Assembly: GCA_009930495.1 (NCBI GenBank) | Contig: RZYB01000011.1 | Location: 1 to 32,815 of the forward strand | DNA: 32,815 nucleotides | Direction of reading: 5' to 3' | Source of the DNA: Deltaproteobacteria bacterium | GTDB lineage: Bacteria; Desulfobacterota; Desulfovibrionia; Desulfovibrionales; Desulfomicrobiaceae | Shown here: positions 1,361-24,782 of the stretch, piece after piece | Position numbering within the stretch: position 1 is the first letter of the stretch | Layout of the letters: each line of letters starts with the position of its first letter | Notes under the pieces: model-generated | Told to the model about the DNA's origin: nothing | The model's input: the letters and a program-made list of their open reading frames with translations, nothing else | Database searches by the model: none | Program-made: the position numbers and the translations under genes

Positions 1361-2809
1361 ATGACCCTCGATTACGTCACTCTCGACCATTTGCGCCTCG
1401 ACCACCCGGCATGGCGGCTCCTGCGCTCGGACCACGCCCCGCTCGTGGCCAGCTTTCTGCACAAGGTCTTCATCGCGCCCAACACGCGCCTCATGACCCA
1501 GGCCGATCTGGCCGAAATGCTGGAAGATGAACTCTTCGCCCTGCGCGACCTGCTCGGACCCGACGCCTTCCCCCGACCCGCCCTGTTTTATCTGAACGAC
1601 TGGGCCGGCCCGGACAAGGGGTGGTTGCGAAAATTCTACCAAGCCGGATCCGACGAACCGTTTTTCGATCTCACTCCGGACACGGAAAAGGCCATCATCT
1701 GGCTGGGCAGCCTGACCGCGCGTGAATTCGTGGGCACGGAATCGCGCATCCTGACACTGTTCGAACTGCTGCGCCAGATCAGCCAGGGCAGCGAGGCCGA
1801 TCCCGACGCCCGCCTGGCCGATCTGCACCGCCGCCGACGCGAGCTCGACGTGGAGATCACCCGCATCCAGGGCGGCGACGTGCCGCTTCTGGACGACACG
1901 GCCCTCAAGGAACGTTTCCAGCAGTTCCAGCAACTGGCCAGGGAGCTGCTCACGGATTTTCGCGAGGTGGAGCAAAACTTCCGCGCCCTGGATCGCCGCG
2001 TCCGCGAGCGCATCGCCCTATGGGCTGGGTCCAAGGGCGAACTTCTGGAAGACGTCATGGGCGAACGCGACGCCATCGCCGATTCGGACCAGGGCCGTAG
2101 CTTCCGCGCCTTCTGGGATTTCTTGATGTCCAGTCGCCGCCAGGAGGAACTGACCACGTTGCTCGACCGGGTCCTGACCCTGCCACCCGTGGCCGAGCTC
2201 CGGCCCGAACCGCGCACCCGGCGCATCCACTACGACTGGCTGGAGGCCGGTGAGCACACCCAGCGCACCGTGGCCCAGCTGTCCCAGCAGTTGCGCCGCT
2301 TTCTGGACGACCAAGCCTGGCTGGAAAACCGACGCATCATGGACATCCTGCGCGCCATCGAGGCCAAGGCCCTGGATCTGCGCCAAAATCCGCCCACCGG
2401 CGATATGATGGACATGCCCGAACTCGGGGCCGACATCCGCCTGCCCATGGAACGTCCCCTGCACACTCCGGCCGCCAAGCTGGTCATCGCGGACACGGCC
2501 CTGGCCCAGGGCCAGGCCGATCTGGATACCTCGGCCCTCTTCGCCCACGCGGTCATCGACAAGAGCCGGCTGCTCGCCAACATCCGCCGCGCCCTGCAGG
2601 ACCGTCCCCAAGTCACCCTGGCCGAACTCTGTCTCCAGGCACCGCTGGAACACGGCCTGGAGGAATTGTTGACCTATCTGCAACTGGCCGACACCAAAAC
2701 CGTGGTCGATGACACCGTCACCGACACCATCGTCTGGAAAAGCACCGCTCCCGATGGCCTGGAACAGGACAAACAAGCGCGGCTGCCGCGCGTTATCTTC
2801 GTGAGGTAG
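1361..2809 (+). CDS. jetA: Wadjet type I subunit JetA (DUF3375, kleisin/MukF-like)
   Basis: This 482-residue protein matches JetA of type I Wadjet systems (DUF3375). In the family, JetA is the MukF-like kleisin that links the SMC-like ATPase heads of JetC and recruits JetB. It is mostly helical. The N-terminal part starts TLDYVTLDHLRLDHPAWRLL, a basic heptad-rich segment (HRRRRELDVEITRIQ) follows near residue 160, and the C-terminus looks winged-helix-like. No ATG, GTG or TTG lies between the preceding in-frame TGA and this ATG, so the start is fixed. Its Shine-Dalgarno is weak. A TTGACC hexamer at 1252-1257 could be a -35 box, but no good -10 was found. jetB begins 2 nt after the stop. Confidence 0.93.
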   Translation: MTLDYVTLDHLRLDHPAWRLLRSDHAPLVASFLHKVFIAPNTRLMTQADLAEMLEDELFALRDLLGPDAFPRPALFYLNDWAGPDKGWLRKFYQAGSDEPFFDLTPDTEKAIIWLGSLTAREFVGTESRILTLFELLRQISQGSEADPDARLADLHRRRRELDVEITRIQGGDVPLLDDTALKERFQQFQQLARELLTDFREVEQNFRALDRRVRERIALWAGSKGELLEDVMGERDAIADSDQGRSFRAFWDFLMSSRRQEELTTLLDRVLTLPPVAELRPEPRTRRIHYDWLEAGEHTQRTVAQLSQQLRRFLDDQAWLENRRIMDILRAIEAKALDLRQNPPTGDMMDMPELGADIRLPMERPLHTPAAKLVIADTALAQGQADLDTSALFAHAVIDKSRLLANIRRALQDRPQVTLAELCLQAPLEHGLEELLTYLQLADTKTVVDDTVTDTIVWKSTAPDGLEQDKQARLPRVIFVR

Positions 2810-2811
2810 GC

Positions 2812-3447
2812 ATGACCGAACCCAGCTTGCACGGCACGCGCCCGACCGAATTGTCCACGGTGGTCGTGCCCCTTTTGAAAGGCGTCCTCTACGAGGACAA
2901 CGACGCCCCCGCCTGGGCCGCCCTGCTGCGTTTCCAGGCCAGGGTCCGCGACTATGTCGCGGTGCTCGGCCTGGAACTGGTCCTGGACGAGGCCGAAGGA
3001 TACGCCTTTCTGCGCTCCAGGCTTCACGATGACGCGGACAACGACGCCAAACGGCCACGGCTCGTCGCCAGACGCCCCCTGTCCTTTCCGGTCAGCCTGC
3101 TGCTGGCCCTGCTGCGCAAGAAACTGGCCGAGTCCGATGCCTCGGGCGGCGATACCCGGTTGGTCCTGACCCGCGACGACATCGTCGAGCTGATCCGGGT
3201 CTTTTTGCCCGCGACCACCAACGAAACACGCCTGGTCGATCAGATCGACGCCCATATCAATAAGATCATCGACCTCGGCTTTCTGCGACGCCTCAAAAGC
3301 GGCGACCAGACCGGAGGCCAGGGCGCCTTCGAGGTCCGACGCATCCTGAAGGCCTTTGTCGATGCCCAGTGGCTGGCCGAATTCGACGCCCGCCTGGCCG
3401 CGTATCACGCCCAACTGACCGCCACGCCGGAGACCGGCCATGAATGA
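2812..3447 (+). CDS. jetB: Wadjet type I subunit JetB (DUF4194, KITE/MukE-like)
   Basis: This 211-residue protein fits JetB (DUF4194), the MukE-like KITE subunit of the Wadjet complex, which binds the JetA kleisin. Visible family features are the opening [18 protein letters not shown] and the central [17 protein letters not shown]. They are followed by the winged-helix region with [22 protein letters not shown] (in two parts) and an [14 protein letters not shown]-terminal segment. The start lies 2 nt after the jetA stop, with AGGTAGG as ribosome-binding site inside the jetA end. Its last 8 bases overlap the start of jetC, indicating translational coupling and fixed subunit ratios. Confidence 0.92.
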
Positions 3448-6400
3448 ACTTCTGCCCGAAAGCCGCGACGGCGCCTTGTCCGGATTCCGCCTGGAGCGCC
3501 TGGAAGTCTACAACTGGGGTACTTTTGACGGCCGGATCTGGACCCTGGACGCCAACGGCACGAACACCCTGCTCACGGGCGACATCGGCTCCGGCAAATC
3601 GACCCTGGTCGACGCCGTGACCACCCTTTTGGTCCCGGCCCAACGCGTCGCCTACAACAAGGCCGCCGGCGCGGACAGCCGCGAGCGCAGTCTGCGCTCC
3701 TACGTGCTGGGGTACTACAAATCCGAACGCAACGAAATCAGCGGCGCGTCCAAGCCCGTGGCCCTGCGCGACGCCAATTCCTACTCGGTCATCCTGGGCG
3801 TGTTCCACAACCGGGGCTTCGACCAGACCGTGACCCTGGCCCAGGTTTTCTGGATGACCGAACGCCAGGGCCAGCCGGCCCGCGTCTATGTGGGCGCCGA
3901 GGGCGAGTTGTCCATCGCCGGGGATTTCGCCCGCTTCGGCCCGGACATAAACGCCCTGCGCAAAAAACTACGTAACCTCGGCGTCGAGACCTTCGAGTCC
4001 TTCCCGCCCTACGGGGCCTGGTTCCGCCGCCGCTTCGGCATCGACAACGACCAGGCCATGGAGCTTTTCCACCAAACCGTGTCCATGAAATCCGTCGGCA
4101 ACCTGACGGATTTCGTGCGCAACCACATGCTCGAACCCTTTGACGTGGGACCGCGCATCACGGCCCTGATCAACCATTTCGAGGATCTGAACCGCGCCCA
4201 CGAATCGGTTCTCAAGGCCAAGCGCCAGGTCGGAATGCTCGTCCCCCTGATCGAGGATTGCGACCGCCACGCCGCCCTGGCCACCGGGGTCGAGGCCGAA
4301 CAGGCCTGCCGCGAAGCCCTGCGCCCCTGGTTCGCGACCCTCAGGCTGGACCTGCTGGACAAACGCGCCACCTCCCTGGCCGAGGACTGGGAACGCCAGA
4401 ACGCGCGCATCGCCCGCCTGGAAGAGCGTCGTGACGGGTTACGCGCCGAGGAGGGGGATCTGCGGCGCAACATCGCGGCCAACGGTGGCGACCGCCTGGA
4501 ATGGCTGGACGCGGAAATCCGCAAGAAAAACCAGGATCGTCAGGCCCGCGAGCGCAAGGCCACGCGGTACGCCGACCTCATCTGGGCCCTGGGCGAGACG
4601 CCGGCCACGGACGAAACCGCCTTCCCGCGCCAGCGCCAGGAACTGGCCGCCCTGGCCGAAGCCGCCACGGACCGCGACACGAGCCTGCAAAACGACCGCA
4701 CCGAACACGAAGTGGCCCTGCGCCAGGGCAAGGCCGAACACGATGTGCTGTGCGCCGAAATCGCCAGCCTCAAGGCCCGGCGCAGCAACATTCCGGCCGA
4801 ACAGGTGGCCATGCGCCAGGCCATGTGTCGCGAACTCGGCCTGCGCGAAGCGGACATGCCCTATGCCGGCGAACTGTTGCAGGTACGCGAGGAGGAGCGG
4901 GACTGGGAAGGCGCGGCCGAGCGCGTCCTGCGTGGTTTTGGCCTGTCCTTGCTGGTGCCGGACAAACACTACGCCGAGGTCGCGGCCTGGGTCGATCGAA
5001 CCCACCTGCGCGGCCGGCTGGTCTATTACCGGGTGCGACCCGGCGGACGCGGCGAACGCCCGACCCTGGACCGCGATTGTCTGGCCCGCAAACTGGCCAT
5101 CAAAACCGACTCGCCCTTTTACGACTGGCTGGATCGGGAACTGCCCCATCGTTTCAACATCGTCTGCTGCTCCACCCAGGACCAGTTCCACCGCGCCACC
5201 CGGGCCATCACCCGCGCCGGACAGATCAAGGCTCCGGGCGAACGCCATGAAAAGGACGATCGGCACCGCCTGGACGATCGCGGCCGGTTTGTCCTGGGCT
5301 GGACCAACGCGGCCAAGATCGAGGCCCTGGAGGCCAAGCGGGGCCGCCTTGAAGCCCAACTCGGCGAGCTGGGCGGACGTGTCGCCACCATCCTGGCCGA
5401 GCAGGCCAGGCTCAAGGAACGTCTGAATATCCTGTCCAAGCTCGATGAATACACCGAATTCCGCGAGCTGGACTGGCAAGGACTGGCCATGGAGGTGGCC
5501 GCGCTGGAGAAGGAAAAACAGGCCTTGGAATCGGCCTCGGATGTGCTCAAAACCCTGACCACGCGGCTTGGCGAGGTGCACGCCGACCTGCTCAGTCTGG
5601 ACGCGACCCTGGAGGAGCACAAGGACGCGCGCTCCAAGACCGAGCAACGGCTCTCGGACACCCAGGCCCTGCGCGTCCAGACCCAGGCCATCGTGGACGC
5701 CGCGCCCCCAATGGACCGGACCGGGTATTTCGCCCGTCTGGACGCCCTGCGCCAGGAGGCCCTGGGCGAACACCGGCTGACAGTGGAATCCTGCGCCGGG
5801 TACGAACAGGCCATGCGCGAATGGATGCAGGCCCACATCGACGCCGAGCACAAAAAAATCGCCCGACTGCGCGACAAGATCATCACGGCCATGAGCGCCT
5901 ACCGCGCGGCCTTTCCCCTGGAAACCCAGGACACGGACGCGGCCATGGAGTCGGCCGGGGAATTCCGGTCCATGCTGGACCAACTCCAGGCCGACGACCT
6001 GCCCCGGTTCGAGGCCCGCTTCAAGGAGCTGCTCAATGAAAACACCATCCGCGAGGTGGCCAATTTCAACTCCCAGCTGATGCGCGAGCGCGAGACCATC
6101 AAGGAGCGTATCGCCCGCATCAACGAATCCCTGCACCAGATCGACTACAATCCGGGCCGGTTCATCGTGCTCGAATCCCAACCCACGCCCGACGCCGACA
6201 TCCGCGATTTCCAGAGCGAGTTGCGGGCCTGCACCGACGGCGCCCTGACCGGCCCCGAGGATCTTCAGTATTCCGAATCCAAATTCCTCCAGGTCAAGGG
6301 CATCATCGAACGCTTCCAGGGCAGGGAAGGGACCACGGACCTGGACAAACGCTGGCGGGACAAAGTCACGGACGTGCGCAACTGGTTCTTGTTCGCGGCC

Positions 6401-6805
6401 AGCGAGCGCTGGAAGGAAGACGGCACCGAATTCGAGCACTATTCGGACTCGGGTGGCAAATCCGGCGGACAAAAGGAAAAGCTGGCCTACACCATCCTGG
6501 CCGCCAGCCTGGCCTATCAGTTCGGCCTGGAATGGGGGGCGTCCCGGTCCCGGTCCTTCCGCTTCGTGGTCATCGACGAAGCCTTTGGCCGGGGATCGGA
6601 CGAATCGGCCCAATACGGTCTGAAGCTTTTCGGGCAACTCGGCCTGCAACTGCTCATCGTCACGCCCTTGCAGAAAATCCATGTCATCGAACCGTTCATT
6701 TCCGGAGTCGGCTTCGTGCACAACGCGGATGGCCGGTCCTCCAAGGTGCGCAACCTGACCATCGAGGAATACCGGGAGGAAAAGGCCCGGCTGGCGGCCA
6801 AATGA
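3440..6805 (+). CDS. jetC: Wadjet type I subunit JetC (SMC/MukB-like ATPase)
   Basis: This 1121-residue protein is the motor of the Wadjet complex, an SMC-like ATPase that extrudes DNA loops so that small closed circles can be recognised and cut. The N-terminal head has the Walker A motif GDIGSGKST at about residues 47-55. The C-terminal head has an ABC-type signature ([14 protein letters not shown], about 1001-1014) and Walker [12 protein letters not shown] (about 1041-1051). Between them lie long charged helical stretches typical of coiled-coil arms around a central hinge-like region (about 480-600). The length matches type I JetC. The start overlaps jetB by 8 nt, and the stop overlaps jetD in an ATGA. 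No frameshift or missing motif is seen. Confidence 0.95.
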
Positions 6806-7980
6806 CCTGGACCACGCCGGCGGACATCCGCGCCAGGGTGCGCGCGCTCTGGGACCGGGGAACGATCTTGGCCGGTTTGATCGGGGCGGACCATCCCTTT
6901 CCGCTGCGGCTGCCCCTGAAACGCCCTGGCAGCGAGGAGCTGACCGCGCGCTTCGACGAGGTCCGGGCCTGGATCCGCGACCTGCGCGCCATGCCCCATT
7001 GCAGGCTGGAAACCAAGGACTACCGCCACCGCGTCCTGGGCACCAATGCCCTGCCCCAGGCCATGTGGATCGACACGCCTGACGCGGCCATCCGTCTCAT
7101 CGGCAAGACCAGGGAGGCGGCGCGATTCCTCGATCTGCACGCCCGGACCGAACATCTGCCGACCCTTCGCCCCTGGCTGGTCAAACGCCCCCTGCGCGCC
7201 CTGGATCTGGCCGGGGATTGGCCCCGCCTGCTGGCCTTTGTGGACTGGATGCGCCATAATCCGCGCCCCGGCATCTATGTACGCCTCATCGACCTGCCGG
7301 GCCTGGACACAAAATTCATCGAGACCCACCGGGGCGTGCTGGCCGAACTGCTCGAACTGGCCCTGCCGCCCGAGGCCATCGACCACGCAATCACGGGAAG
7401 CGCCCATTTTGCTAGGCGCCACGGATTTCTGGACAAGCCCCGGCGCATCCGCTGCCGCGTTCTCGATCCCGCCCACAGCCCCTTGTCCATCGGTGGCACC
7501 CCGGACCTGACCATGGACCATGAACACTTCGCCCGCGTTCCCTGGCGGGTGGACAGGGTTTTTATCACTGAAAACGAAATCAATTTCCTGGCCTTTCCGT
7601 CCATGCCGGACAGTTTGGTCATTTTTGGAGGCGGGTATGGCTTTGAAATGCTGGATGGATTGCATTTCCTGGAACGTGCCCAGGTCTTTTATTGGGGCGA
7701 CATCGACACGCACGGCTTCGCCATTCTGGACGAACTGCGGCTGTCGTGCCCCTGGGCCCAATCATTTCTGATGGACCGCGACACGCTCATGGCCTTCGAG
7801 GCCCAGTGGGGGGAGGAACACACGCAGACCAAGCGGGACCTGCGCCGGCTGACGCCCGAGGAGGGGGATCTGTACGACGATCTGCGCGACAACCGCATCC
7901 GACCGCGATTACGTCTGGAGCAGGAACGAATCGGCTTCACCTGGGCGCGCCAGGCCCTGGACCGGCTCGTTCACCCGTGA
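6802..7980 (+). CDS. jetD: Wadjet type I nuclease subunit JetD (DUF3322 + DUF2220, TOPRIM)
   Basis: This 392-residue protein is the DNA-cleaving subunit of Wadjet. The N-terminal part corresponds to DUF3322 (about 1-190) and the C-terminal part to DUF2220, a TOPRIM-like nuclease related to topoisomerase VI/Spo11. The TOPRIM acidic residues are present: E257 in FITENE, and D300-x-D302 in YWGDIDTHG. The nuclease is therefore expected to be active. The start was chosen at the ATG that overlaps the jetC stop (ATGA) and gives the usual family length; the longer open frame upstream lies wholly inside jetC. The gene ends 8 bp before the end of the convergent rel gene, with no terminator between them. 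Confidence 0.94.
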
Positions 7981-10517: not shown

Positions 10518-13500
10518 ATGTCTAATTTTTCCGAAGAACACGTGCAGCGCGTCCTGCAAAACTTTTTGTCCGAGAGCATTCCAGAACATATTCGCGACGG
10601 GGCCCAGTATCTTATCGCCGACGGGGGCATTCAAAAAATCGATGTCCGACGCAACGAAGACTCCTGGGATATCGAAGGCCTGATCCAGGGCGATGATTTT
10701 CAGACGTACACATCCGAACTGAGCGTCAACCTCGAACAGGAAACAGTCCATGCCTATTGCAACTGTCAGGATTCCTTTTCCGGCATCTGTCGGCACGTGG
10801 CGGCCACGGTCCAAGGCCTGCTCTCGCGCTTCGACGTCCAGCACGAGGTCGAAACGCAACCCGCGAAATCCGAATGGAAGCACAGCTTCCGCTATTTTTT
10901 CTCCACGGCCCTGGAGCCGGAACCGGGCCACCACTACCTGATTTTCCGCTTTTTCGCCGAATCCGGCCGATTGCAGGTGGAATTCTTCCGGGCCCGCCAG
11001 AACAAATCCGGCCTGTCCACGGTCCAGAATCCCGTCACCCTGGAACAAATCGCCCGCAATCCCGATTGGTGCGAAATTTCTCCGGAGCTGCCCCGCGTCG
11101 CCGAGCAGATCGGACAGTACCTGGACTATTACGGCCACCGGGTTGAAGTTCCCTTTGGGCTCATGACCTGGTTCTTCTGGGCCATCAAAAACGAGTACTA
11201 CCAATTCTGGGAAGAAACCGAACAGCCGGTACGCATCGAAAGCACGCCCATGCGGCTCCAGTTGCGCCCCCGTTTCACCGACGACGGCCTGTCCTTCGAC
11301 ATCATGCTCGGTCGCGAGGGCAAGGTGCCCTTCTCCATTCTCAATCAAAAAATAAACTTTTACGGCCAGTTGCCCCTGTGGGTCTGTCTCAAGCACAGCT
11401 TTTACCCTGTTCAGACAGGGCTTCGGCCCAGCCTGATCCAGGATCTGGTTCTCAACCCGCCGGTCATCCCCCACGCCGATATCTCGGAATTTCTGGATCG
11501 GGTCTGGACCCAAATTCCGGCCTCGGACCTCCACGGCCAGGACGAATTTCTGGAACGGATGCAACCCATTTTCGTGCCGGCGACCTACAACCCCAAACTT
11601 TTCCTGAACGAGGAAGGCAGCCTGCTGACGCTCGAAATCCAGAACATCTACGAAACCGAGCATGGCGACATCTCCCTGCCTGGCCCGAACCAGGATTTGC
11701 AGACCGGCAGCTACCAGTTCGAGGGCAAATCCTTCCTCATCCGCCGCGATCAGGAAGAGGAAGAGGTTCTGCTGACCACCCTCATGGACATGAACTTCCA
11801 GCCGCGCAGCAACGCCATCTGGTTTCTGGAACCCGACGAGGCCATCACCTTCCTCCTTGATGCCTACCCCAAGCTGGTGGAGGCCTACCGCGTTTTCGGC
11901 GAAAAGGACCTGACCCGCTACAAGGTGCGCCTGACCCCTCCCAACGTGGTGGCTGTCGTGGAAACGCAGGAAGAGGACAAATGGTTCAACCTGGAGATCA
12001 GCGTCGAATACGACGACATTTCCGTACCCATCGACAAAATCTGGAAGGCCTGGACCCAGGGCAAGCGCTATGTCCAGCTCAAGGATGGTTCCTACACCAG
12101 CCTGCCCGAATCCTGGCTGGAAAAACTTGGGCATAAGCTGATCGCCCTGGGCCTTGATCCGGAAAAACCGCCCAAGAAACGCTTCGAGAACTTCGAAGCC
12201 CCGGTTCTGGACAAAATCCTGGAAGACATTCCCGAAACCACCTCCGACGGATTTTGGGATACCCTGCGGGAAAAAATCCACGATTTCACGGAAATCAAGC
12301 CCGTCAACACGCCCAAGGGGCTCAACGCCACCCTGCGTCCGTATCAGTTGCAGGGCGTCAGCTACATGAACTTCCTGCGCGAGTACCATTTCGGCGGCAT
12401 CCTGGCCGATGAAATGGGCCTGGGAAAAACCATCCAGACCCTGACCTTTCTCCAATACATGAAAGAGCAGGGGCACGGCGGGCCGAATCTGATCATCGTC
12501 CCGACCTCGGTTCTGCCCAACTGGGAGCGCGAGGCCCAAAAATTCGTGCCGGACATGAAACGTCTGGTCATCTATGGGGCCAGACGCGAGAACATGTTCA
12601 AAAAAATCGAGACGTCGGAACTGATCATCACCACCTACGCCCTGTTGCGTCGGGATTTGGACGAACTCACAAAATTTGAATTCAACGCCGTTATCCTGGA
12701 CGAAGCCCAGAACATCAAGAACCCAAACACCATCACGGCCCGCAGTGTACGCAAGATGCAGGCCCGGTTCCGGCTCTGTCTGTCGGGCACGCCCATTGAA
12801 AACACGCTGCTTGAGCTGTGGTCCTTGTTTGAATTCCTCATGCCCGGATTCCTGGGTTCCCAGGCCGCCTTCCAGAAAGGCTTCGTCAAGCCCATCAAGG
12901 ACGGCGACGATGACAGCCTGAATTACCTCAAGGCCCGGGTCAAACCCTTCATCCTGCGCCGTACCAAAAACGAAGTGGCCAAGGACCTGCCACCAAAAAT
13001 CGAAAACACCTACTACTCCGCCCTGCTCGACGACCAAATGGAGCTGTATGCGGCCCTGGCCAAGAAGCTCAAGGAACAGGTCATGCAGGACGTGGAGGAA
13101 AAGGGCATCGGCCAAAGCCAGATCTCCATTTTGGACGCCCTTTTGAAGCTTCGCCAGATCTGCTGCCATCCAAGGCTCCTGAAGCTCGACATGCCCGGCC
13201 TGAACACCAACCTGTCCTCGGGCAAATTCGAGGCGTTCAAGGATCTGGTCACGTCCATCATCGACGACGGCCACAAGGTCCTGGTCTTCTCGCAGTTCGT
13301 GCAGATGCTGCATATCATCCGCAACTGGCTGCACATGGTGGAAATTCCCTTCTGCTACCTGGACGGCACCTCCAAGGACCGCTTCGATCAGGTGGATAAA
13401 TTCAACAACACGCCCGAGATTCCCATTTTCCTGATCTCGCTCAAGGCCGGCGGCACGGGCCTCAACCTGACCTCGGCCGACTACGTCATCCACTACGATC

Positions 13501-13724
13501 CGTGGTGGAACCCGGCCGTGGAAGACCAGGCCACGGACCGCACGCACCGTATCGGCCAGACCCGACAGGTGTTCTCCTATAAAATGATCTGCGAGAACAC
13601 GGTGGAAGAAAAAATCCTGAAACTTCAAGAGTCCAAGAAAGGCATCGCCGATTCCATCATTCCTGGCCAGTCTGCCTGGAAGAGCCTGACCCGCTCGGAT
13701 CTGGAAATGCTCTTCGAGGTCTGA
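10518..13724 (+). CDS. SWIM zinc-finger SNF2-family DNA helicase/translocase
   Basis: This 1068-residue SF2 ATPase resembles the bacterial SNF2 (HepA/RapA-like) proteins that remodel protein-nucleic-acid complexes. An N-terminal SWIM finger is visible as C81-x-C83 and C91-x-H93 (YCNCQD, GICRH). A long region of about 500 residues with no recognised fold follows. The helicase core has Walker A with K637 in DEMGLGKT, a DEAQ box (D728-Q731), LSGTPIEN, SLKAGGTGLNLT and the arginine-finger motif HRIGQTRQ. The start has AGGAG 13 nt upstream, rather far. It stands alone, bounded by its own promoter region and a strong terminator. There is no nuclease or methylase next to it, so it is not obviously part of a defence cassette. 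Confidence 0.92.
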   Translation: MSNFSEEHVQRVLQNFLSESIPEHIRDGAQYLIADGGIQKIDVRRNEDSWDIEGLIQGDDFQTYTSELSVNLEQETVHAYCNCQDSFSGICRHVAATVQGLLSRFDVQHEVETQPAKSEWKHSFRYFFSTALEPEPGHHYLIFRFFAESGRLQVEFFRARQNKSGLSTVQNPVTLEQIARNPDWCEISPELPRVAEQIGQYLDYYGHRVEVPFGLMTWFFWAIKNEYYQFWEETEQPVRIESTPMRLQLRPRFTDDGLSFDIMLGREGKVPFSILNQKINFYGQLPLWVCLKHSFYPVQTGLRPSLIQDLVLNPPVIPHADISEFLDRVWTQIPASDLHGQDEFLERMQPIFVPATYNPKLFLNEEGSLLTLEIQNIYETEHGDISLPGPNQDLQTGSYQFEGKSFLIRRDQEEEEVLLTTLMDMNFQPRSNAIWFLEPDEAITFLLDAYPKLVEAYRVFGEKDLTRYKVRLTPPNVVAVVETQEEDKWFNLEISVEYDDISVPIDKIWKAWTQGKRYVQLKDGSYTSLPESWLEKLGHKLIALGLDPEKPPKKRFENFEAPVLDKILEDIPETTSDGFWDTLREKIHDFTEIKPVNTPKGLNATLRPYQLQGVSYMNFLREYHFGGILADEMGLGKTIQTLTFLQYMKEQGHGGPNLIIVPTSVLPNWEREAQKFVPDMKRLVIYGARRENMFKKIETSELIITTYALLRRDLDELTKFEFNAVILDEAQNIKNPNTITARSVRKMQARFRLCLSGTPIENTLLELWSLFEFLMPGFLGSQAAFQKGFVKPIKDGDDDSLNYLKARVKPFILRRTKNEVAKDLPPKIENTYYSALLDDQMELYAALAKKLKEQVMQDVEEKGIGQSQISILDALLKLRQICCHPRLLKLDMPGLNTNLSSGKFEAFKDLVTSIIDDGHKVLVFSQFVQMLHIIRNWLHMVEIPFCYLDGTSKDRFDQVDKFNNTPEIPIFLISLKAGGTGLNLTSADYVIHYDPWWNPAVEDQATDRTHRIGQTRQVFSYKMICENTVEEKILKLQESKKGIADSIIPGQSAWKSLTRSDLEMLFEV

Positions 13725-19569: not shown

Positions 19570-19920
19570 TTAACCCCGCCGGCTGAGCAGCCGGGGCGCG
19601 ATGGGGGTGATGATGGCGCCATCGCGATATCCTCCCATCCGTTTGGTCTCGGAGCGCAGTTTGAGCAACTCTTCCTTCAGGGCTTTGTGCAACAGCATGG
19701 CTTCGTTGCGCAGCCGAGTGTTGACGGCCTGCATCTGCACGAGCTTGTCCCGGAAGGCATCGTCCCGCCCCTGGGACCCCGCGGCCATGAACTCGAAAAT
19801 GGCCTGTTCGCGCTGGGCCAGGGCATCCGCCAAACCCTCGGTGTCCTTCTGGGCAAGACACGCGGCTTCCCGCCTTTCGAGGGCGCCAATGTGTTCATAC
19901 CGGCTTTGAAGATCAGACAT
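19570..19920 (-). CDS. Small coiled-coil protein (possible FliT/FlgN-like chaperone)
   Basis: I do not firmly recognise this 116-residue protein. It is helical and charged, with leucine-rich heptads (LQSRYEHIGALERREA; LALAQREQ-like LADALAQREQAIFEFM; NEAMLLHKALKEELLKLRSE), and a basic C-terminus. The size and heptad pattern resemble FliT/FlgN-type flagellar export chaperones, but no flagellar gene is visible in the window, so this is a weak guess. Its start overlaps the previous gene by 8 nt, meaning the two are translationally coupled and their products likely work together. Confidence 0.6.
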   Translation of the reverse strand: MSDLQSRYEHIGALERREAACLAQKDTEGLADALAQREQAIFEFMAAGSQGRDDAFRDKLVQMQAVNTRLRNEAMLLHKALKEELLKLRSETKRMGGYRDGAIITPIAPRLLSRRG

Positions 19921-20530
19921 GGGTTTCCTTCCTGAGAGCCGCTTTCAAGGACTCCCGCAGATGGGCCACGATGGTCTTGGTTTTTTCCACCAGCGGCAGG
20001 TATTCGTATTCCAACAAATCCGCGAGCAAAATCCAGTCCTCGTTTTCCTGGATCTCGATCATCTCCGTGAAAAGCGAGGACAGATCCGCCAGGGAATTTT
20101 CAAACTCCTCCGAGGAATCCAGGGCGAATTCTCCGCGAAGCACGCCCACCATGCCCAGAAAATCCCGGTTGACCTCGATCAGATCCCCGTACAATTCCAG
20201 GGCCTGGGCGTCGTCGGCCATGCGGAAGCTGTCCGCCACCCGCTGGCCCGCCTTGGACATGAGGCTGACCACCTTGTACAGTTCCCGCGTGATGCTTTGC
20301 GCCATCTCGATCAGCGGCACGGAAACGATTTCGACCCGGTCGATAGAGGCGGTTTCCATGTCCTCGGCCTGATGGGGATAAATCTCCGAAAACGCCTCGT
20401 TATTGACGAGCACGTCCGTGACCACTCTGCGCTGCATGCGCTCGTCTTCCATGACTTTTTCTATAATCTGTTCGAGATTCTCAAAATTCGCGACCTCGAG
20501 CAGGCTGTTTTGACCGTCGACTATGATCAT
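19913..20530 (-). CDS. Hypothetical protein with a beta-rich N-terminus and helical C-terminus
   Basis: This 205-residue protein has two parts. Residues 1-75 (MIIVDGQNSLLEVANFENLE, then VVTDVLVNNEAFSEIYP and IDRVEIVSVP) look like a small beta-grasp-type module. I recall this module at the front of uncharacterised proteins in other anaerobes. The rest is acidic and all-helical (FALDSSEEFENSLADLSSLF). No enzyme motif, cysteine cluster or signal peptide is seen. The start is the ATG at 20530, which has GGAGG 8 nt upstream; a GTG 15 nt earlier is too close to that site. It lies 44 nt after the GT9 gene and overlaps the next gene by 8 nt. Confidence 0.7.
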   Translation of the reverse strand: MIIVDGQNSLLEVANFENLEQIIEKVMEDERMQRRVVTDVLVNNEAFSEIYPHQAEDMETASIDRVEIVSVPLIEMAQSITRELYKVVSLMSKAGQRVADSFRMADDAQALELYGDLIEVNRDFLGMVGVLRGEFALDSSEEFENSLADLSSLFTEMIEIQENEDWILLADLLEYEYLPLVEKTKTIVAHLRESLKAALRKETHV

Positions 20531-20574
20531 TTCCCTGTCCTCCACGTTGGGATATTTTTACCGCACGCCAAGGA

Positions 20575-22110
20575 CTAATCAACATCCATGCCAAGACAGT
20601 TTTGAAACGCGGTCAAAAGCGCGCCATAGCGACCGCACAACGCCACGAAACCCTCCATGGACCGGGCGGCCTCCTGGGATTGGTACATCCACATCGGACC
20701 CAAAACCCCAAGCCCGCGACTCGCGTCCAAAAAATCCTGAAAATTTTGGCAATTAACGAGAAATTTCTTCCGAATCGACTCCGGCGCCCCCCGGATGAGC
20801 AGCCGGGCCTGTTCCTCGACCAAGGTCAATAACAGCAGACCGCGCTCCAGATCAGCCCGTAACGACCGCTTGAAGGGAGATGGTCGCCAGATGGGGGCCG
20901 GGATTCCCATGACGGCACTTCTGTCAAGAAACTGACGATAAATTCCACGCTGCTCCTGAATCCAGCTCGAACGATCGCCGTGGCCGCCTGGCGAGATATC
21001 CTCCAGGTCCATGAACCCGTGTCCGTCGCGCTTGGCGACCCAAACGCGCGCGCCCAACTCCGAGGACGCGGTCCACTGCCCGGAACGGGCAAAAGCCACG
21101 ATCATGGCTCCGACCGCCTCCGGATCGATCCGCTCGCGGCAGGCCAGACCGTGGGGACATTGCCGGCCAAAGGTGCACGGACGACAGGGTATGTCCGGCT
21201 CCAGGCTGATGGACCCGACCTGGTACGGTCCGGTGTCAAAGGGCTGGGCCGTGGCCAAGAATATGGCCACCACCGGCACGCCCAGGCCAGCGGCCAGATG
21301 CATGGTGCCGGTATCGTTGGTCAGCAGAAGGCGCGTCCGGGTCAGGACCGCGGCCAGTGTCGGGATGTTTGTCCGGCCGATCAGGTTCGTGAACGGGTAA
21401 TCGGCGCCGTGGCCGAAGGCCTCCCCAAGATGGGCTTCGGCACCGGTCCCCAGCAAAACAGGGCGCAAACCCACCTCCCGCCACAGCACCCGCCCGACGC
21501 GGACAAAGGCATCGACGGGCCAACGCCGATAATCCTGGCTGGCCCCGAGCTGGAAAGCCACCAAGTCCGAATCCGCGCCCAGCAGGGCGTCGGCCCGCGC
21601 CAAGGCCTCGGAATCCGGACGCTTCAGGGCAAAAGAACCAGGCGACAGGCCGGCCACGCGTTGGAAAAGATCGACCAGATTGAACGGGCTGCACCCTCTG
21701 TGCTTGGACGCGGCCTGCAGAAAAGCGGCCCATGGCGAAGAATATTGGCCAAATCCAAAGGCGTCGAGGCCAAAGCCATCCCCGGCATGGCCCAGGGACT
21801 GGCCCAGCAGTCGGGCCGAAAGCGTTGGGGTCAAATTCAGAATTCGGTCGGGATGGGTCCGCAGACACTGCTCGCTCCATAGCCGCAGGGCGGCCACGGC
21901 CAGGGGCCACCCCTGATCGACCAGGGCCAAAAACCTGGCTCCAGGCAGGGGAACGACCGCGTCCAGGTCCCGCAGCAGGGCCGTGGCGCCCTGGAAAGTG
22001 TCCAGACACACCAAACTGGTCCGGTGCCCGGCGGCCTTGAGGCCGCTCAGCACGGGCTGGGTCTGGAGCAAATCCCCGAAGCGGGTCAGATTGACGACCA
22101 AGGTATGCAT
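20575..22110 (-). CDS. Glycosyltransferase family 9 protein (heptosyltransferase-like) with C-terminal extension
   Basis: This 511-residue protein has the GT9 fold in residues 1 to about 330: NLTRFGDLLQTQPVLSGLK at the N-terminus, and the nucleotide-sugar-binding half with PVLLGTGAE and LLTNDTGTMHLAAGLGVPVV. GT9 enzymes add heptose or related sugars, usually to lipopolysaccharide core, though some modify flagellin or other proteins. After the GT9 core comes C309-x2-C312-x5-C318-x5-C324, a four-cysteine motif that may bind metal. It is followed by about 185 further residues, mostly helical, absent from ordinary heptosyltransferases. The start is the ATG preceded by GGAGAGTGTC. It lies 74 nt downstream of the TPR gene in the same run. 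Confidence 0.85.
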   Translation of the reverse strand: MHTLVVNLTRFGDLLQTQPVLSGLKAAGHRTSLVCLDTFQGATALLRDLDAVVPLPGARFLALVDQGWPLAVAALRLWSEQCLRTHPDRILNLTPTLSARLLGQSLGHAGDGFGLDAFGFGQYSSPWAAFLQAASKHRGCSPFNLVDLFQRVAGLSPGSFALKRPDSEALARADALLGADSDLVAFQLGASQDYRRWPVDAFVRVGRVLWREVGLRPVLLGTGAEAHLGEAFGHGADYPFTNLIGRTNIPTLAAVLTRTRLLLTNDTGTMHLAAGLGVPVVAIFLATAQPFDTGPYQVGSISLEPDIPCRPCTFGRQCPHGLACRERIDPEAVGAMIVAFARSGQWTASSELGARVWVAKRDGHGFMDLEDISPGGHGDRSSWIQEQRGIYRQFLDRSAVMGIPAPIWRPSPFKRSLRADLERGLLLLTLVEEQARLLIRGAPESIRKKFLVNCQNFQDFLDASRGLGVLGPMWMYQSQEAARSMEGFVALCGRYGALLTAFQNCLGMDVD

Positions 22111-22184
22111 GACACTCTCCACGGACAAACCGCACGGCGGACACTCGAAAAGCACGCGACGCTAGGCCGCGCCGGGCCCAGGGG

Positions 22185-24782
22185 CTATCCCTTGGTGTCC
22201 AGAATCCGGTTCTTGTAGGCTTCAAACTGGGACGAGGCCCGGAGCGCCGCGCCAACAACGGCAAAAAAAGAAAAAAGAATCAGACAGATATTCAAAACAA
22301 GCCATCTATCCTGACGCAAATCCCGCCCCATGATCCCCTGCTTGGGGAAAAAATAGATCAACCCCAAGGAAATGCCCCCCGACACCACGATGGCGATGAC
22401 CTCGAAAAAGAGCAGATACTTTCCGGACAACAGTGAAAAAAGCACGGCATTGCGCACCGTTTGCAAAAAAAGCAGCTTCTGTTCCAATTTCTTGAGATCC
22501 TGGGTGGCCGCGCGGACCGCCTCGTGGGCCCGCCGGAATTTATCCGGCACATAGAGGTCCAGCTGGCCGACCATCTGCAACTGCTCGCCGCAATGATTGA
22601 ACAATTCATTGAAATGATGCAGCAAGCGGGGAAAGGGAAACCACGACGCCTCGTGCTGGATTTCCAGCAGGCGGTCGAACAAAACCTTGCGCTGGGCGCC
22701 AAGTTCCTTGATATCCTTCTTGACCCTGGCCTGAATTTCATCGCGGATCATCAGGGTACCACGGATCAATTTCGCGGTGGCCACGTAATTGCCGATACCG
22801 GAGTGGATGCTTAATCCCTGAATGCGTTCGGCAAACCCCCGATACGCGTCGTGGTCGCGCGGCAGCCACTTGTCCAACAGGTCTGGCAGATGCTCGACGG
22901 AACCGACGATTTCCGAGGCTGTCCGGTCCGCCTCCTGCCAAATATCCCACAGATCGGCCAGAATCAGCGTGCGCCCGCCCTCGAGCTCCGGGTCCAACAA
23001 CATGACACTGAAAAAATCCGGGTCCTGTTGGATCAAATCCCGCAGCATGCCCTGGGCCTCGGCCAAAAAGCCGGACTTGATCAGGCACACGGCCTGACGG
23101 TAACGAGCCGGCAAAAATCGCGAGGACTCGCGCAAGGCCTTGCCGTAGAGCCCCACGGCCTCCTGATGCACGCCCTGCACCTCGCACAGCCGTCCTTGCA
23201 GAAACTGGACGTACGAACGCTGCAACGGGGTGTAGGTCAGCCCCTCGGCCTCCTCCCAATAACCACGCGCCCGCTTCAGCTCGCCGCGCTCCATGGCCAT
23301 GAATCCCTGCAGCAGCCGCGGCTGGTAATTCTTATGCGCCTTGAGAATATACTGGTCGAGCTGTTGCGAGGCCCGATCGATGTGGCCCATGCGCATGGCG
23401 TCGAGGGCGGACCAGATCAGTTCCTCCCCCGGATCCCGCAAATCCTGGATGCCATCCGGCCATTGCTTGCCCTTGGCCCGCCAGACCAAATTCATCATCC
23501 GCAACTGGCAGGTCTGGTTGACATCGAACATGGCCCCGACGACCGTGGCCAGGTCCCCTTTTTCCATGAGCAGATTGGACAGATCCTGCAGCAGGTCCGA
23601 GGACAGGCGCTTGTCCAGGGCCTGGAACAAGCCCGGCAGGGCGTCCAGCCCCATCTGACCGAACCGATCCAAATAATTGATCATGGTATTGGCCGGTTGC
23701 AGTCGCCGCGACGGACATTTGACCGGTGGATGCGAACGCAGGCCGCAATAAAAGCACGGCGCCTCGGAGCCGGAAACCAGGGGGGAAGGCAGGAGGATAT
23801 TCAGGCTGCCATGCCGCTTGGTACCGCCTTCCATGGAAATTTGGACCTGAAAAAAATCGGAAATCTTGGTGCGGGACATGGAAAACCGTGATTCCACGGG
23901 AGTCAGGCGGGGGTCCGCGATCTGAAACATCGTGGCCAGGGGCATGTACAGGACGCCGGACTCCAACGCCTCGAAAACATGCAGCATTTTTTTCGGAAAA
24001 TCCGGCGTGAAGGAATGGCTGTCGAGTTCCATGATGAGATACTCGCAAGGCCACACCTGCACGTCAGCGCTCCCGACCAGGGTCATTATCTCCAGGATCA
24101 GGCGCGCCAAGGTGCGCAGGGAAGAAATCTTGAGCATCAGCACATGGTCTTCGCCATGCTGGTACACGACCTTGTTTTGCGTCAGGAGCGGCTCGATGCG
24201 TTCGAAATAGGAACGCCATCCCTTGGCAAAAACCTTGTCCTGACGCGTGCCGATGGGACGGATCAGCCACAACCAATTCGTGCTCGTGGACACGGTGAGC
24301 TGTTCACTGGATTCCAGATCAAACCATTTTCCGGCCAAACCATCCAGATTCTGGCTCTGCTTGAAGGACACGCCGGTCATGCTCCGGCCCAGTTCGCGCA
24401 AATGGGACGTGACCCGAACCACCAGGCGCTTGGGAAACCCGACTTCCAGGTTGCTCAGCTCGGCCTTGACAGACAAGGACCGCTCGAACGCCTCGCCCAC
24501 GATCAGGCTGCATTCGAACACGGTCACGGCGGCGGCAATGGGGTTCAGACGCGCCCAGTTGTGCAGCCGGGCCAGGCCGATCATGACCATCGGATCGGGA
24601 AAAAACCACAAGACCTGAGTCTTTTCCTCGGCCAGGGACCAGCCACCCATGTCGGACAGGGATTGAAAAAAGCTGACCGAAGGCGCCTGCGGGTAGCAAA
24701 TCCAGCAAGCAATGCCGTTGCTGACCAATCGCGAAGAGAGCGTGCGCGGCACCTTGGCCAGAAGCGTGGCGAGAGAATTCAT
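22185..24782 (-). CDS. TPR-repeat membrane protein with a CCHC zinc-knuckle motif
   Basis: I do not recognise this 865-residue protein as a named family. The N-terminal about 330 residues have no known fold. At C343-x2-C346-x4-H351-x4-C356 there is an exact CCHC zinc-knuckle spacing. Residues of about 450-590 look like tetratricopeptide repeats (YWEEAEGLTYTPLQRSYVQF; AVGLYGKALRESSRFLPARY). A coiled coil follows (about 690-760). Two transmembrane helices end the protein (about 770-805 and 825-850), with a short basic tail. It thus appears to be a membrane-anchored scaffold. The ATG has GAGGAGTCCG in front. It is the first gene of the run 24782-19570 and is divergent from nadC. Confidence 0.7.
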   Translation of the reverse strand: MNSLATLLAKVPRTLSSRLVSNGIACWICYPQAPSVSFFQSLSDMGGWSLAEEKTQVLWFFPDPMVMIGLARLHNWARLNPIAAAVTVFECSLIVGEAFERSLSVKAELSNLEVGFPKRLVVRVTSHLRELGRSMTGVSFKQSQNLDGLAGKWFDLESSEQLTVSTSTNWLWLIRPIGTRQDKVFAKGWRSYFERIEPLLTQNKVVYQHGEDHVLMLKISSLRTLARLILEIMTLVGSADVQVWPCEYLIMELDSHSFTPDFPKKMLHVFEALESGVLYMPLATMFQIADPRLTPVESRFSMSRTKISDFFQVQISMEGGTKRHGSLNILLPSPLVSGSEAPCFYCGLRSHPPVKCPSRRLQPANTMINYLDRFGQMGLDALPGLFQALDKRLSSDLLQDLSNLLMEKGDLATVVGAMFDVNQTCQLRMMNLVWRAKGKQWPDGIQDLRDPGEELIWSALDAMRMGHIDRASQQLDQYILKAHKNYQPRLLQGFMAMERGELKRARGYWEEAEGLTYTPLQRSYVQFLQGRLCEVQGVHQEAVGLYGKALRESSRFLPARYRQAVCLIKSGFLAEAQGMLRDLIQQDPDFFSVMLLDPELEGGRTLILADLWDIWQEADRTASEIVGSVEHLPDLLDKWLPRDHDAYRGFAERIQGLSIHSGIGNYVATAKLIRGTLMIRDEIQARVKKDIKELGAQRKVLFDRLLEIQHEASWFPFPRLLHHFNELFNHCGEQLQMVGQLDLYVPDKFRRAHEAVRAATQDLKKLEQKLLFLQTVRNAVLFSLLSGKYLLFFEVIAIVVSGGISLGLIYFFPKQGIMGRDLRQDRWLVLNICLILFSFFAVVGAALRASSQFEAYKNRILDTKG

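Follow-up and report, generated by a model that had tools for sequence, protein, structure and literature searches.

Four genes, here called A to D, lie on the minus strand of contig RZYB01000011.1 from a Desulfomicrobiaceae bacterium (assembly GCA_009930495.1; genome size 3.2 Mb; closest named relatives, Desulfomicrobium), within a 32,815-nucleotide stretch of DNA that was analysed as a whole and is referred to below as the window. All four are open reading frames (ORFs) and follow one another in the order A-B-C-D, with gaps of 74 nt between A and B and 44 nt between B and C and an overlap of 8 nt between C and D; the orientation, order and spacing given in an earlier note on this DNA were all reproduced from the ORFs. 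Their conservation in relatives, with B and C 60-80% identical within Desulfomicrobium, identifies A-D as real genes. The conserved unit is the B-C-D triad, not the four genes together, and this triad is likely, though by no means certain, to represent, in Desulfovibrionales, a Desulfobacterota module for flagellin modification and export of which A is not a core part. Distribution was followed in an order-level sample of 199 Desulfovibrionales genomes and an outgroup of 191 Desulfobacterota genomes from outside that order; gene names at distant loci were read by eye from protein starts wherever no family search covered them.

Proteins encoded by the triad

The domain reading put forward in the earlier note holds for the most part, with tetratricopeptide repeats (TPRs), a zinc knuckle and hydrophobic segments in A, a GT9 enzyme in B, an alpha/beta part followed by helices in C and a helical D. 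The product of B belongs to the GT9 glycosyltransferases (PF01075, 75.3 bits against a cut-off of 22), the only family that it matches; neither PF01973 nor Maf_flag10 was found in it. Among solved structures its nearest relatives are a Veillonella GT9 enzyme, WaaF and WaaC, and the structure model (predicted local distance difference test, pLDDT, 90; predicted template modelling score, pTM, 0.90) aligns with solved GT9 structures at Z 31.4 for 3tov (root-mean-square deviation 2.5 over 321 residues), 28.6 for WaaF and 27.5 for WaaC. Eight residues, R10, G12, D13, E225, D266, T267, G268 and H271, are invariant among 14 sequences of the B family. A catalytic role for the N-terminal GD and C-terminal DTGxxH motifs is known from WaaC.

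Gene C matches no Pfam or NCBIfam family above cut-off and has no match in PHROGs; a Dynamin_M hit (E 4e-4, below cut-off) was judged coiled-coil noise and set aside. The AlphaFold2 (AF2) model of C (pLDDT 87) places strands at residues 2-4, 35-42, 45-47 and 66-72, together with one main helix, ahead of four long helices, and the topology of this model makes the N-terminal domain beta-grasp-like. That domain is missing from distant homologues of 134-157 aa (L114-L116) and 146 aa (L139), which keep the helical part, and the alpha/beta domain is therefore dispensable. Profile comparison of C with FliS returns a weak score (hhalign probability 1.6%), compatible with a shared fold, and neither the C nor the D profile gave a convincing match when searched against the sequences of solved structures.

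Assignment of D relies on its relatives. Within the D family of the order, FliT is the most frequent Pfam match (8 of 32 members, best E 0.006) and FlgN the second (4 of 32, best E 4e-5), all of them below cut-off. The family profile also aligns over nearly its whole length with small proteins encoded beside C or fliS/fliD elsewhere (hhalign 96.7%, E 4e-10), two of which exceed the FliT cut-off of 29.5, at 39 bits (L102) and 29.6 bits (L140); control comparisons gave 11% to FliS and 0.8% to C. The profile match to FliT-passing proteins and the sub-cut-off family matches point to a remote FliT/FlgN-type flagellar chaperone rather than a proven FliT. Elsewhere in the window's genome, no FliT match above cut-off was found. 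D was also considered as the FlgN of this genome and rejected, a clear FlgN being encoded elsewhere, beside flgJ and flgK.

Conservation of the triad and its association with flagellin

All 71 Desulfovibrionales loci, and so all 54 with distinct C sequences, carry a D-like ORF of ~105-120 aa whose start falls within ~125 nt of where C ends. Of the 54 distinct loci, 49 have B as the immediate upstream neighbour of C. The block conservation that the earlier note had proposed as a check thus extends across the order for B-C-D and not for A. Two further genes recur beside the triad. In many Desulfovibrio-type genomes from the gut (L039-L047), the gene immediately before B encodes a protein whose C-terminal region is lysozyme-like (cluster 3, assigned by eye) and which might be a flagellar peptidoglycan hydrolase, and a lookalike of PilZ/YcgR-type flagellar brakes (cluster 28, also by eye) adjoins B-C-D at L055, L057 and L071.

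Across the order, C occurs in 164 and flagellin in 174 of the 199 genomes; 163 genomes have both, 24 have neither, 11 have flagellin only and one has C only, the last resting on a weak match (E 6e-4). The association is strong (Fisher p 2e-21, uncorrected for kinship). The 11 flagellin-only genomes comprise seven from family f3, the sole f6 genome and three incomplete assemblies. Genera g12, g15, g5 and g10 each include genomes with both genes and genomes with neither, indicating several joint losses.

These distributions bear on an unlikely alternative, in which B is a heptosyltransferase for the lipopolysaccharide (LPS) core or a surface polysaccharide, C and D take part in building the envelope, and the flagellar link arises indirectly through joint loss in non-motile or reduced lineages. 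The resemblance of B to the Veillonella enzyme, WaaF and WaaC speaks for such a role, as does the placement of the Desulfovibrionales B-C-D genes among unrelated housekeeping genes; yet non-flagellated genomes, which should still require an envelope, lack C. Several of these double negatives are 2.8-3.2 Mb in size and >95% complete, so that genome reduction or missing sequence is insufficient as an explanation.

Outside the order, the C profile has 25 matches among the sampled Desulfobacterota genomes. Every C-bearing genome is flagellin-positive (25/25, against a base rate of 109/191; chance 2e-7), and C lies <=20 kb from a flagellin gene in 15 of the 25, with only 358-850 bp from start to start in three. 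The distance to flagellar genes, another check named in the earlier note, is thus short at these 15 loci outside Desulfovibrionales; at the loci viewed within the order the trio does not adjoin flagellin genes. At L103 the order is glycosyltransferases, C, D, fliS, fliD and fliC, and at L108 and L110 a glycosyltransferase array is followed by C and then by fliS, fliD and fliC. C stands between Maf and fliC at L138 and at L140, where the Maf protein (PF01973, 122 bits), C and fliC are followed by flaG, fliD, fliS and FliT (PF05400); at L139 a Maf-like glycosyltransferase and a GT9 gene precede C, fliC, fliD and fliS. In every array with several GT9 genes, the one adjoining C scores highest against the B profile (312 versus 192 bits at L105), which identifies B as its positional orthologue. 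A transferase inside or beside the flagellin locus is therefore seen in other Desulfobacterota orders, whereas the evidence within Desulfovibrionales is co-occurrence. Weak matches to C at L113 and L119 (E about 1e-8 to 1e-9), which have no flagellar or glycosyltransferase context, may be non-orthologues.

The presence of the trio within flagellin loci alongside Maf enzymes in other classes further disfavours an envelope function. It is compatible with a second alternative, also improbable in our estimation, in which B-C-D would serve export or assembly of FliD and flagellin without any glycosylation, B having turned into a structural or regulatory partner. The FliT/FlgN-like character of D, the helical bundle of C and the placement of C beside fliC, fliD and fliS in other classes would all be accommodated, but the GT9 motifs of B are invariant across the order, and in other genomes Maf-type transferases stand in its place or beside it.

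Gene A and the remainder of the window

Gene A encodes a protein with TPRs (PF14559, TPR_19; 31.8 bits) and two hydrophobic segments at its C-terminus; C343, C346, H351 and C356 of its zinc knuckle are invariant among 16 aligned homologues from Desulfovibrionales. Full-length homologues are present in 156 of the 199 Desulfovibrionales genomes, but A adjoins B-C-D only in Desulfomicrobiaceae, in most Desulfomicrobium genomes and the sister genus g3. Elsewhere it sits 23 kb to 2.6 Mb from the triad or on another contig, with TusE/DsrC- and YcaO-like genes among its neighbours and no flagellar context, and three Desulfomicrobium genomes (G034, G048 and G073) have B-C-D without A. Scattering in related genomes, named beforehand in the earlier note as evidence against its proposed four-gene unit with A as scaffold, is what was found for A, and that proposal is not supported.

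A single membrane-anchored glycosylation and export complex of A, B, C and D, with A as its TPR scaffold, is accordingly very unlikely. In its favour, A stands upstream of B in most genomes of Desulfomicrobium and g3, the genomes found to carry A all have flagellin (156 of 156 in the order, and all 12 of the strongest partial matches in the phylum), and a TPR domain mediates the recognition of flagellin by Caulobacter FlmG (PMC7591256). The lack of linkage in all other families and the three Desulfomicrobium genomes without A weigh against it, as do the domains joined to A relatives elsewhere. The C-terminal two thirds of A, with the same zinc knuckle, also occur in other Desulfobacterota, and in two scanned relatives (L129 7837-10488 and L131 8073-10742) this region is fused to a class III nucleotidyl cyclase domain, which suggests signalling. 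Similar cyclase-like N-termini are visible in A relatives at L132, L134, L136 and L137, and the cyclase-fused proteins are a possible new signalling protein family. On linkage, despite its restriction to flagellated genomes, A was ruled out as a core part of the module and is probably a separate neighbour.

Two other regions of the window stand out. A complete Wadjet type I defence operon, all of its genes strong PADLOC matches, occupies positions 1361-7980 on the plus strand (Table 1). A 1068-aa protein encoded at 10518-13724 on the plus strand resembles in its C-terminal half the SNF2-type helicases of defence systems (DpdE, ZorD) and may be part of another defence locus.

Table 1. Positions in the window of the genes and protein segments discussed in the text
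Feature	Position	Strand	Description
Gene A	22185..24782	-	865 aa; ORF; TPR/zinc-knuckle protein with two C-terminal transmembrane segments; neighbour of the triad
A, residues 343-356	23715..23756	-	CX2CX4HX4C zinc knuckle (alignment)
Gene B	20575..22110	-	511 aa, ATG at 22110; GT9-family glycosyltransferase with extra C-terminal helical domain
B, residues 1-346	21073..22110	-	GT-B fold, heptosyltransferase type; motifs N-L-T-R-x-G-D13 and N265-D266-T-G-T-x-H271 invariant
B, residues 347-511	20578..21072	-	Short strands, then helical C-terminal domain; in 151/199 genomes of the order
Gene C	19913..20530	-	205 aa; undescribed family
C, residues 1-72	20315..20530	-	Small alpha/beta domain, beta-grasp-like (AF2 model)
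C, residues 73-205	19916..20314	-	Four-helix bundle with conserved ENEDWILLADLLEYE motif
Gene D	19570..19920	-	116 aa; helical; putative remote FliT/FlgN-type flagellar chaperone
JetA	1361-2809	+	PADLOC
JetB	2812-3447	+	PADLOC
JetC	3440-6805	+	PADLOC
JetD	within 6532-7980	+	PADLOC

A candidate flagellin-modification module and its known counterparts

Flagellin glycosylation is known chiefly from Maf and FlmG systems. By analogy with these, in which the modification of flagellin takes place in the cytoplasm and its chaperone-dependent export follows (PMC4065374, PMC7591256), the flagellin of Desulfovibrionales would be glycosylated in the cytoplasm ahead of an export chaperone. B is the best candidate transferase; no PF01973 Maf protein was found in the window's own genome. 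As a cytosolic GT9 enzyme, B would attach a sugar, possibly from an adenosine diphosphate (ADP)-heptose donor, to flagellin or to some other protein of the filament prior to its export. The helical C would serve as an adaptor, binding the still unfolded filament protein, B or both and presenting the substrate for modification. D, as a FliT/FlgN-type protein, would take over at a late stage and bring cargo of the filament stage, either FliD or flagellin, to the export gate of the flagellar type III system. The trio, which elsewhere in Desulfobacterota is part of the flagellin locus together with Maf-type transferases, would have moved away from it in Desulfovibrionales. We infer the substrate, the sugar, the binding roles and the order of steps in this scheme. 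More tentatively, as a possibility that we hold to be somewhat doubtful, C could represent a new class of flagellin-handling chaperone or adaptor, built as a four-helix bundle to which a beta-grasp-like arm is joined. Such a protein would offer unfolded flagellin to GT9 or Maf glycosyltransferases and couple glycosylation to export as a dedicated Desulfobacterota carrier.

Several observations weigh against a role of B-C-D in flagellin modification and export. GT9 enzymes are mostly directed at LPS. At the Desulfovibrionales loci viewed, the trio is not beside flagellin genes, and a search for sigma-54 and sigma-28 promoters gave matches near shuffle level, none convincing, the single good sigma-54-like site being at L070. 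Flagellated genomes of f3 and f6 lack C, which is therefore not generally needed for flagella. The bundle of C retrieves only generic four-helix bundles, from designed proteins and chemoreceptor sensor domains, at Z 12-15, and such matches may reflect a common helical arrangement at most. Gene D itself matches no family above cut-off, FliT (PF05400) included.

Published fitness data touch on heptosyltransferase-family genes. In D. alaskensis G20, mutants in three such genes, not mapped to B, show the same loss of fitness at high pressure as flagellar mutants, and the authors tentatively linked those genes to extracellular polysaccharide (PMC6052904); a fitness paper on D. vulgaris makes no mention of motility or flagella (PMC10102598). 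The literature searched contained no description of flagellin glycosylation in Desulfovibrio-type sulfate reducers.

On balance, the B-C-D arrangement is real, conserved and apparently undescribed, and it is most probably a variant form of flagellin glycosylation coupled with export that includes one new family, C. The flagellin-glycosylation module with dedicated chaperones suggested in the earlier note survives for B-C-D, given their co-occurrence with flagellin, the flagellin loci of other orders and the remote homology of D, but without A as its scaffold. The triad is an old conserved set that accompanies flagella across sulfate-reducing bacteria and probably decorates and delivers filament subunits. 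Since most of the sampled Desulfovibrionales with flagella carry it, it could account for the way in which filaments are built in this group, and it turns the coordination of glycosylation with chaperone-dependent export into a testable question. C adds a conserved family without a Pfam, NCBIfam or PHROGs entry that stands beside flagellin in distant genomes.

The scheme bears its closest resemblance to Maf loci, in which a cytosolic transferase is encoded beside flagellin, which is modified before a chaperone binds it and it is exported (PMC4065374), and C homologues indeed lie between Maf and fliC at two loci. It departs from them in that B is a GT9 enzyme without PF01973, C is an extra, undescribed protein, and the trio lies away from flagellin in Desulfovibrionales. 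Caulobacter FlmG likewise joins a GT-B flagellin enzyme to a separate recognition module and acts ahead of the secretion chaperone (PMC7591256), a division of labour that is putative here; FlmG is, however, a single TPR and GT-B polypeptide, whereas enzyme and presumed helper are separate in the triad and C is not a TPR protein. B shares its GT-B fold and motifs with WaaC, WaaF and the protein heptosyltransferase TibC (Z 27-31 for GT9 structures and 20 for TibC), from all of which it differs by its added C-terminal domain. Although the window's D lacks the above-cut-off family match of FliT and FlgN, it resembles these chaperones in size, helical make-up and remote profile similarity, and D-like proteins take a corresponding position beside fliS and fliD in other classes.

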